From positions 2,043,650-2,107,649 of the forward strand of contig NZ_LR594487.1 of the NCBI RefSeq assembly GCF_901686465.1: a stretch of DNA of 64,000 nt, in the 5' to 3' direction. This DNA is from Halorubrum sp. DM2 (GTDB lineage Archaea; Halobacteriota; Halobacteria; Halobacteriales; Haloferacaceae). Shown piece by piece: positions 58,554 to 60,889 of the stretch. The position numbers were made by a program, and so were the translations under genes. The notes under the pieces are model-generated. The model worked only from the letters and a program-made list of their open reading frames with translations, was not told where the DNA came from and did no database searches. The stretch's first letter is position 1. The number at the start of each line of letters is the position of its first letter.

Positions 58554-60158
58554 ATGCTGAACGCGATCACCACGCGCTACGGCCGACGGGTCGGCGCGGC
58601 CGTCCTCCTGACGCTCGCCGCGACGCTCGGATTCATCGCCCTCTTCGCGGGCCACGTCGCGACGGTCGGGACGCCGGCGGCGGCGACGGCGGCCGTGACC
58701 TCCATCGGCGTCGTCGTCACGCTGAACCTCGGGTTGCTGGGTATCGTCCTCGTCGGGAACGTCGCGGTCGAACTCCGGCGGCTGACGGAGACCGCCGAGG
58801 CGGTCGGCCGCGGCGAGTTCGACGCGAGCGCGAGTTCGGATCGCCGCGACGAGATCGGGCGGCTGTTCGACGCCTTCGACGAGACGCGCCGGTCGCTCCG
58901 GGACGCGGTCGCCGAGTCCGAGCGCGCGCAGTCGGAGGCCGAGTCGGCCCGCGAGGAGGCCGAGTCGCTGTCCGACACGCTGCTCGACCGCGCCGAGGAG
59001 ATCGGGGGTGCCATGGAGCGGGCGGCCGAGGGCGACCTCACGCGCCGGCTCCCCGAGGACAGCGACGTCGACGCGATCGAGCGCATCACGGCCGCGTACA
59101 ACGAGATGACCGGCGGGCTCTCGGCGACGGTCGAGGACATCCAGTCGTTCGCGGGCGACGTGGAGGCCACGAGCGAGGAGATGGCGGCCGAGGCCGACGA
59201 CGTGGCGGAGATGAACCAGGAGGTGGCCGCCGAGATGCGGGCGCTGGCCGACGAGCTGGACGAGCAGACCGACCGGCTGCGCGAGACGGCCGCGGACACC
59301 GACGACTTCTCGGCGACCGTCGAGGAGATCGCCTCCACCACCGACGAGGTGGCGGGCGACGCGAGCGCCGCGGCCGACCTCGGCGAGGAGGGGGAGGCGC
59401 GGGCGACCGAGGCGATCGAGGCGATCGTCGCGATCGGCGACCTCCTCGCGGACCTCGACGAACTGGTCGCCGGGCTGGACGACCGGATGGACGGCGTCGC
59501 GGAGACGACCGACGTGATCGCGGACATCGCCGAACAGACCAACATCCTCGCGCTGAACGCCTCGATCGAGGCGTCGCGCGCGGGCGGCGACGGCGACGGG
59601 TTCGCGGTCGTCGCCGACGAGGTGAAGGGGCTCGCCGAGGAGACGCGCGAGTCGACGACGGAGATCGAGGCGACGATCGGCGAGGTGACCGAGGACGTGT
59701 CGGCGGTCGCCGGCGAGATGGACCGGACGATGACGGAGTTAGACGAGACGACCGCGGCGGTTCGCGAGGCGGGGACGGCGATAGAAGAGCTCACCGGCAC
59801 CGTCGAGGACGTCGACGTCGCGATGGGCGACATCGCGCGGGCGACGGACGAGGGCGCGGAGGGGATCGAGTCGGTCGCGGCGCGCGTCGAGGCGGTCCAC
59901 GGCTCCGCCACCGACGCCGCGGACCGCGCCCGGACGCTGGCCGAGGCCGCGGACGACACCGCCGAGACGGTCGGCGACCTCGCGGCGACGGCGACGGCGC
60001 TCGCCGAGCGTACCGCGTCGCTCACCGACCGGCTCGCCCAGTTCGAGACGCGGGCGGACGCGGACGCCGCGGGTGTCGACGCTGCGGGGGCGACGGTCGC
60101 GAGAGGCGACGACACGCCCCCGGAACCGGCCGCCGCAGACGGAGGTGAGCGCCGATGA
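58554..60158 (+). CDS. HtrII-like methyl-accepting transducer paired with an opsin homologue
   Basis: The 534-residue transducer has TM1 (about 13-33), a very short external loop, and TM2 (about 47-69). Two HAMP-like segments follow (RRLTETAEAVGRGEFDAS...DEIGRLFDAF; GAMERAAEGDLTRRL...), then a long coiled coil and the signalling tip EQTNILALNASIEASRAG. The lack of an external ligand domain, the two HAMP modules and the TLNLGL motif in TM2 match sensory-rhodopsin transducers. In HtrII an Asn in this stretch (N74) bonds to SRII; here it is N58. Its stop overlaps the opsin start by ATGA. It probably signals to CheA/CheW in a chemosensory array. The start is supported by a cctaaatacc element ~34 nt upstream. 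Confidence 0.88.
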   Translation: MLNAITTRYGRRVGAAVLLTLAATLGFIALFAGHVATVGTPAAATAAVTSIGVVVTLNLGLLGIVLVGNVAVELRRLTETAEAVGRGEFDASASSDRRDEIGRLFDAFDETRRSLRDAVAESERAQSEAESAREEAESLSDTLLDRAEEIGGAMERAAEGDLTRRLPEDSDVDAIERITAAYNEMTGGLSATVEDIQSFAGDVEATSEEMAAEADDVAEMNQEVAAEMRALADELDEQTDRLRETAADTDDFSATVEEIASTTDEVAGDASAAADLGEEGEARATEAIEAIVAIGDLLADLDELVAGLDDRMDGVAETTDVIADIAEQTNILALNASIEASRAGGDGDGFAVVADEVKGLAEETRESTTEIEATIGEVTEDVSAVAGEMDRTMTELDETTAAVREAGTAIEELTGTVEDVDVAMGDIARATDEGAEGIESVAARVEAVHGSATDAADRARTLAEAADDTAETVGDLAATATALAERTASLTDRLAQFETRADADAAGVDAAGATVARGDDTPPEPAAADGGERR

Positions 60159-60889
60159 TTGAGCCGACCGCGGTGCGGTTCGCGTCGGCGGGGGTCTACG
60201 CGGTCTCCGCGGTCGTGCTGTTCGCGCTCGCGCGGCGCAAGCCGGCGGAACTGCGCCGGTACTGTTACCCGTTCGTCGCGGTCGTGGCGCTCGCGGGCGT
60301 CGGGATCGGGATGTGGGGGGCGGAGATTGGGACGTTCAGCGTCGCGAGCGGCACGCTGGAGGCCGGCCAGCTGCTCACCGACTACGTGGCGTACCCGTTC
60401 CTGTTCGGGTTCGCGGCGTTCGTCGCCGGGGCGGGCCGGCGGTACGTCGGCGCGGTCGTCGCGCTCACCGTCGCGCTCCGGCTCGGCTACGACTTTGCCG
60501 AGGTGTTCGCGGGGCCGCTCGCGACGGCGGGCACGCTCGCCATCCTCGTCGGGTACGTGACGCTGATCGGGCTGTTCTTCGGGCCGGTGGCGAGCGCGGC
60601 GTCGCAGCAGCCCCCCGCCCGCGAGCTGTTCTACACAAAGACGCGGAACCTCGCGCTGTTCGCCTTCGGCGTGTTGATCGCATGGGCGATGCTCCAGATC
60701 GCCGGGCTGTTCGACGCCTTCACCGCGACGGTGACGCTGGAGTACCTCGACATCCTCTTGCGCGTCGGCTTCGCCGGCTTTGTGTTCGCCAACGTGGAGA
60801 CGCTGACGGCCGACGCGGAGTCGGCAGCCGGTGACAAAGAGGGCGGGAGCGTCGAACCCGCGGGGACCGGCGCGTCGACCGCGGACTGA
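60155..60889 (+). CDS. Sensory-rhodopsin-like seven-helix protein lacking the retinal-binding lysine
   Basis: The 244-residue protein has seven predicted membrane helices (about 7-27, 38-58, 72-92, 97-118, 120-142, 163-186, 192-213). It aligns well with Natronomonas SRII, for example GPVASAASQQPPARELFYTKTRNL against the SRII E-F loop, and EYLDILLRVGFAGF against the TM7 retinal site. The Schiff-base lysine (SRII K205) is R203, and no other lysine lies within a helix. In TM3, SRII R72 and D75 correspond to Q72 and T75 (P81 kept). In TM6 the pocket aromatics aligned to W171, Y174 and W178 are replaced. D199 (BR D212 equivalent) and Y197 (SRII Y199, transducer contact) are kept. Coupled to the transducer gene by ATGA. 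Confidence 0.85.
   Translation: MIEPTAVRFASAGVYAVSAVVLFALARRKPAELRRYCYPFVAVVALAGVGIGMWGAEIGTFSVASGTLEAGQLLTDYVAYPFLFGFAAFVAGAGRRYVGAVVALTVALRLGYDFAEVFAGPLATAGTLAILVGYVTLIGLFFGPVASAASQQPPARELFYTKTRNLALFAFGVLIAWAMLQIAGLFDAFTATVTLEYLDILLRVGFAGFVFANVETLTADAESAAGDKEGGSVEPAGTGASTAD

Follow-up and report, generated by a model that had tools for sequence, protein, structure and literature searches.

Opsin-related proteins of haloarchaea and their relatives

Opsin-related proteins (ORPs) of haloarchaea were described by Becker et al. in 2016 (PMC4915679). In group A of this family, whose 16 sequences come mainly from Halorubrum, the retinal-binding lysine is replaced by arginine and pocket residues are lost, with signalling residues kept; 15 of the 16 adjoin a HAMP/MCP transducer. 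The purified ORP of Hrr. distributum gave no peak at 480–580 nm with excess retinal, and ORP protein was undetected in native cells. ORPs also occur in eight species that have neither a canonical opsin nor crtY/brp, and a blind sensory opsin with a retained transducer was proposed for the family (PMC4915679).

The SRII/HtrII pair of Natronomonas pharaonis shares with the ORP pair studied here its fold, operon logic, transducer architecture and Y199–N74 contact residues, but the ORP is without the retinal lysine and without a counterion at position 75, and its pocket is rebuilt. Type I opsins without the retinal lysine are also represented by betaproteobacterial Rh-noK and the lysine-less flotillin-associated rhodopsins (FArhodopsins; PMC10308929). 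These, however, are xanthorhodopsin/proteorhodopsin-like relatives of pumps, no transducer is reported in the FArhodopsin cluster, and Rh-noK rebinds retinal when its lysine is restored, whereas the change in the ORP extends to the pocket itself. SRM/HtrM of Haloarcula marismortui (PMC6450946) is, like the ORP pair, an extra sensory opsin–transducer pair beside SRI and SRII, but SRM binds retinal and absorbs at 504 nm.

Textbooks present type I opsins as devices for light. ORPs keep the signalling end and not the pigment, as would be expected of a photoreceptor turned to another stimulus, and the question of what that stimulus is remains as interesting as it was in 2016. The locus described here lies in a window of 64,000 nucleotides (the whole stretch of DNA analysed) from Halorubrum sp. 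DM2, and its two-gene unit, conserved transducer contact and Arg203/Asp76 prediction make the question testable by standard haloarchaeal genetics.

The ORP gene and its altered retinal pocket

The ORP gene and the residues discussed below are located as follows.

60141–60148, + strand: RBS-like GGAGGTGA, within the 3' end of the transducer gene and retained in most close homologues
60155–60889, + strand: group A ORP gene, predicted retinal-free opsin-related protein of 244 aa; ATG start, intact ORF
60368–60370, + strand: Gln72 codon (SRII R72)
60380–60382, + strand: Asp76 codon (SRII W76), proposed partner of Arg203
60479–60493, + strand: TM4 R109-L-G-Y112-D113, with polar/charged residues that do not vary within the Halorubrum group and lie at or close to the retinal pocket
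60713–60715, + strand: Asp187 codon (SRII T189), transducer contact site
60743–60745, + strand: Tyr197 codon (SRII Y199, which contacts transducer Asn74), invariant
60761–60763, + strand: Arg203 codon CGC, at the site of the retinal Schiff-base lysine, in register with SRII K205

Matches of the 244-residue protein in the PDB were microbial rhodopsins only, with NpSRII chains scoring best (phmmer, E 2.7e-7; E 2e-14 with a family profile). An AlphaFold model has seven helices, and its top structural matches are SRII/HtrII complexes (Z 22.1, 2.8 Å over 215 residues). Because the mean pLDDT of this model, which was built on a shallow alignment, is a moderate 62.7, it supports the fold and not side-chain geometry, and the confidence is too low for the Arg203–Asp76 distance to be read. 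The protein is thus predicted to be a seven-helix protein with SRII as its nearest solved relatives, as an earlier sequence-only reading of this DNA had supposed. Pfam PF01036 (Bac_rhodopsin) gave no match to the ORP at E below 1, although it does match the canonical opsins of the same genome; pipelines or counts of opsin-like genes built on PF01036 therefore miss group A ORPs.

The same reading had placed arginine at position 203 and no other lysine within the membrane, and both observations hold. The only lysines are at 29, 162 and in the 228–229 region, in loops, at the cytoplasmic end of TM6 and in the tail. Misalignment of TM7 was ruled out, as the flanking YLD...VGF lines up with SRII without a shift and there is no other membrane lysine that could take the site. 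A sequencing error at codon 203, all three bases of which differ from AAG as had been pointed out, was ruled out as well, because Arg203 is common to all 24 intact close homologues through different codons (CGC, CGG and CGT); no close relative has lysine.

Relative to SRII, the ORP carries the substitutions R72 to Q72, D75 to T75, W76 to D76, G112 to Y112, F127 to T127, W171 to F171, Y174 to L174 and W178 to A178, among which those at 72, 75, 171, 174 and 178 were already known from the sequence-only reading. The TM7 lysine of SRII, its D75 counterion with R72 and its aromatic retinal clamp are therefore all missing (R203; T75 and Q72; F171, L174 and A178), while the seven-helix type I opsin fold and an HtrII-type transducer are retained. 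In the changes at 76, 174, 178 and 127 (T/S in group A), the kept Y199 and D189 sites, the arginine at the Schiff-base site, the overlapping upstream HAMP/MCP transducer gene (PF00672 and PF00015) and its clustering with Halorubrum ORPs apart from canonical opsins, the protein agrees with published group A, as it does in genus; nothing of substance differs, and position 108 is Leu, not Met. It is almost certainly a retinal-free member of the ORP family and as such belongs to a class described in 2016. The sequence-only reading was right that this is a lysine-less opsin, but it missed the published haloarchaeal family, and its proposal of a blind sensory opsin with a kept transducer, which our analysis supports as the best account, matches that of PMC4915679 and is not new. 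The main text of that paper contains the W76-to-D change and mentions neither a salt bridge nor M109. Relative to that main text, the wider genus range, the ion-pair idea and the test of pocket conservation described below appear to be modest additions, as apparently do the TM3-acid association and the short-looped transducer with its Tyr197/Asn58 pair.

The host genome (3.45 Mb, one contig) encodes four canonical opsins besides the ORP, two of which lie immediately downstream of MCP genes, together with two BCD-family (Brp/Blh-like) genes for retinal synthesis and intact cheA, cheB, cheR, cheW and archaellin genes. Since BCD-family genes and four canonical opsins share the genome, a lack of retinal does not account for the loss of the lysine. 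Haloarchaea are rich in carotenoids, and light could conceivably be sensed through one of these, through a flavin or through non-covalently held retinal. Classical opsins mutated to lack the lysine can function when given aminated retinylidene compounds (work cited in PMC4915679), but here larger residues occupy the glycine positions of the ring pocket (G112 to Tyr, G130 to Ile), the clamping aromatics are gone, and the purified orthologue showed no visible peak despite excess retinal (PMC4915679). We regard an alternative chromophore as very improbable.

The canonical opsins of the host, two of them next to MCP genes, also permit a reading in which the ORP pair has no stimulus of its own and feeds in a steady or attenuating signal, or joins canonical SRII/HtrII arrays, for which the damping of SRI and SRII signalling by SRM–HtrM (PMC6450946) is a precedent. 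SRM still binds retinal, however, the eight ORP species that lack canonical opsins and crtY/brp (PMC4915679) offer no opsin to modulate, and the former pocket of the ORP is still conserved; a purely modulatory role is accordingly quite improbable.

The transducer and its coupling to the receptor

The transducer gene lies directly upstream and has the following features.

58554–60158, + strand: cognate HAMP/MCP transducer, HtrII-like, 534 aa; its stop overlaps the ORP start by four bases (ATGA)
58653–58655, + strand: His34 codon, aligned with NpHtrII E43
58725–58727, + strand: Asn58 codon, aligned with NpHtrII N74
58755–58904, + strand: HAMP domain (PF00672, 3.6e-11)
59442–59900, + strand: MCP signalling domain (PF00015, 4.5e-39)

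The N-terminal part of the transducer aligns with NpHtrII over the TM regions (E 3e-16), and by this alignment its periplasmic loop is short and it lacks an extracellular sensory domain of its own. In published SRII–HtrII structures, HtrII Asn74 pairs with SRII Tyr199 and HtrII Glu43 lies close to SRII Thr189 (in part also in PMC4915679). The first of these is predicted to be retained as ORP Tyr197 with transducer Asn58. Tyr197 faces an N or H of the transducer in 32 of 33 receptor–transducer pairs, in a contact-residue alignment that leaves out 18 of the 40 fetched transducers.

A search for orthologues that keep arginine beside a transducer gene, suggested by the sequence-only reading, found an MCP gene directly upstream, overlapping or adjacent, at 61 of 64 Arg-type loci versus 4 of 15 loci with a hydrophobic residue at 203 (BLAST). 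The latter correspond to group B ORPs (PMC4915679), which are likewise lysine-less, SRII-derived and sometimes beside a transducer, but differ from the window protein in the hydrophobic 203, in R72, in Tyr at 76 and in having no acid at 75/76.

Synteny across loci is limited to the MCP gene, the ORP gene and one divergent neighbour, a thioesterase gene. The compared loci share no further gene from which the stimulus might be guessed; a lactate permease gene and an MMPL gene are each found on the same side in the window and a single close relative only. The end of the transducer differs among close homologues: in the window (60130–60158) it reads GGERR with the four-base overlap, and in most of the others (L033–L042) it reads EVSADD with an eight-base overlap in another frame.

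Distribution and selection of Arg-type ORPs

Close ORP homologues were present in about half of the 52 genomes of the genus, and every named record with a close homologue is from Halorubrum, the one exception being a partial match in a Halobacteriales MAG. Identity to the ORPs of named Halorubrum species is 73–85% (about 81% for Hrr. distributum, in a strain other than that of the purified member). Residues Arg203, Asp76, Gln72, Arg109, Tyr112, Asp113, Glu196 and Tyr197 are invariant in the 24 intact close homologues. The dN/dS of the ORP is 0.28 over residues 1–220 and 0.30 in a second set in which that of the transducer is 0.21, values indicative of purifying selection; the C-terminal tail is nearly free of constraint (pN/pS 0.83).

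A few altered copies were observed. One single-contig genome of the genus carries a frameshifted ORP (L026, about 1498–2240, − strand) with the break near residue 100, which reflects either recent loss of the gene or a fault in the assembly. In a MAG (L043, 5929–6219) the first 28 transducer residues are fused in frame to ORP residues 172–244, the remnant of a deletion at the equivalent locus, and in Halorubrum californiense a second, internally deleted ORP fragment (L040, 8592–8813) lies downstream of an intact copy.

The frameshifted copy in one genome, the remnants in two others and the patchy presence are what a decaying relic of an SRII gene might leave, a condition that the sequence-only reading had named as fatal to its proposal. 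The invariant Arg203, a dN/dS of about 0.3 and a transducer–gene overlap kept across genera contradict it; gene decay was rejected on dN/dS and conservation, and a relic is hardly credible, even though one relative is frameshifted and two loci bear deletion remnants.

Of 392 genomes of the order searched with a profile, 76 had related proteins. Profile matches and genus loci together gave an alignment set of 64 distinct Arg-type, 15 hydrophobic-203 and 9 canonical sequences. In the tree the split between ORPs and canonical opsins has support of 100/99 and the Halorubrum group 100/97. The core Arg clade of 60 sequences spans about 14 genera and 5 families (by genome group codes), and Arg203, Tyr197, Tyr80, Lys162, Arg164 and Asn165 are shared by every member. 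The free tree splits the Arg-type rows into two groups, and an AU test does not reject a single clade (p 0.13), so that the arginine may have had one origin or two.

The TM3 acid and the candidate stimulus

An acid is found at TM3 position 75/76 in 63 of 64 Arg-type proteins, in 8 of 9 Lys-type proteins and in none of the 15 with a hydrophobic 203; the one Arg-type exception has Asn-Asn at 75/76. The pattern points to a TM3 acid as the partner of Arg203, on the model of Lys205 and Asp75 in SRII, and an ion pair between Arg203 and Asp76 (or residue 75) has, in our estimate, slightly better than even prospects of being real. Only two independent changes on the tree underlie the association of acid and basic residues, a number at which a sign test cannot reach significance, and we therefore treat it as a lead and not as proof.

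Positions of the former pocket are more conserved than other TM positions, both in Halorubrum (entropy 0.16 versus 0.64, p 0.0005) and in the other Arg-type ORPs (1.15 versus 1.67, p 0.006). This is not specific to ligand binding, as buried sites tend to be conserved in membrane proteins generally. Residues 108, 109, 113, 127, 134 and 171 vary among subgroups of the Arg class and are fixed or nearly fixed in Halorubrum, as expected if the subgroups were to bind different things.

The account that we favour is a two-gene receptor–transducer unit of SRII/HtrII architecture with a retinal-free opsin as receptor. Because the transducer has no sensory domain, it would be the 7TM protein and not the transducer that detects the stimulus. 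This stimulus would be chemical, probably a small molecule or ion reaching the former retinal cavity, and an ion pair between Arg203 in TM7 and Asp76 or residue 75 in TM3 would replace the protonated Schiff base and its counterion. Binding or protonation would change this latch and move TM6/TM7 against TM2 of the transducer, with output passing through Tyr197/Asp187 to the transducer membrane helices, the HAMP domain and control of CheA. That the ORP and its transducer form a transducer-coupled sensor for taxis is quite likely, and the fuller description of the ORP as a retinal-free, transducer-coupled sensor of something other than light is likely too; absence from about half of the genus genomes, the frameshifted copy, the deletion remnants and the failure to detect ORP protein in native cells (PMC4915679) count against it. 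As to whether the input is a chemical ligand or instead voltage, tension or pH, we see the chances as evenly balanced.

A physical sensor would use the buried Arg203/Asp76, with R109/D113, to answer membrane potential, pH or tension and so shift TM6/TM7 against the transducer. Canonical SRII needs small helix motions only, the transducer has no dedicated binding domain, and the Halorubrum group has invariant charged residues inside its membrane helices. Across the Arg class, however, R109 (R/V/N) and D113 (D/N/E/Q/A) are not kept; subgroup-specific ligands therefore fit better than one universal physical signal, and we consider a physical sensor unlikely. On the chemical reading, Arg-type ORPs could conceivably be widespread archaeal seven-helix chemoreceptors, GPCR-like, with a TM3–TM7 ion-pair switch and the ex-retinal cavity as a ligand site that varies between subgroups, a generalization that we put forward tentatively and that is somewhat unlikely to hold as a whole.

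Two divergent forms were also observed. In one genome (G008) a second locus (L111) encodes an ORP–transducer pair that is about 50% identical, with the usual pair also present. Four loci of one genus (L100, L104, L108 and L110; family code f7, genus code g27) combine Arg203 with the SRII-like R72, D75 and Y174, with Tyr at 76 and Gly at 178; this lineage branches apart from the main Arg clade and may be transitional.
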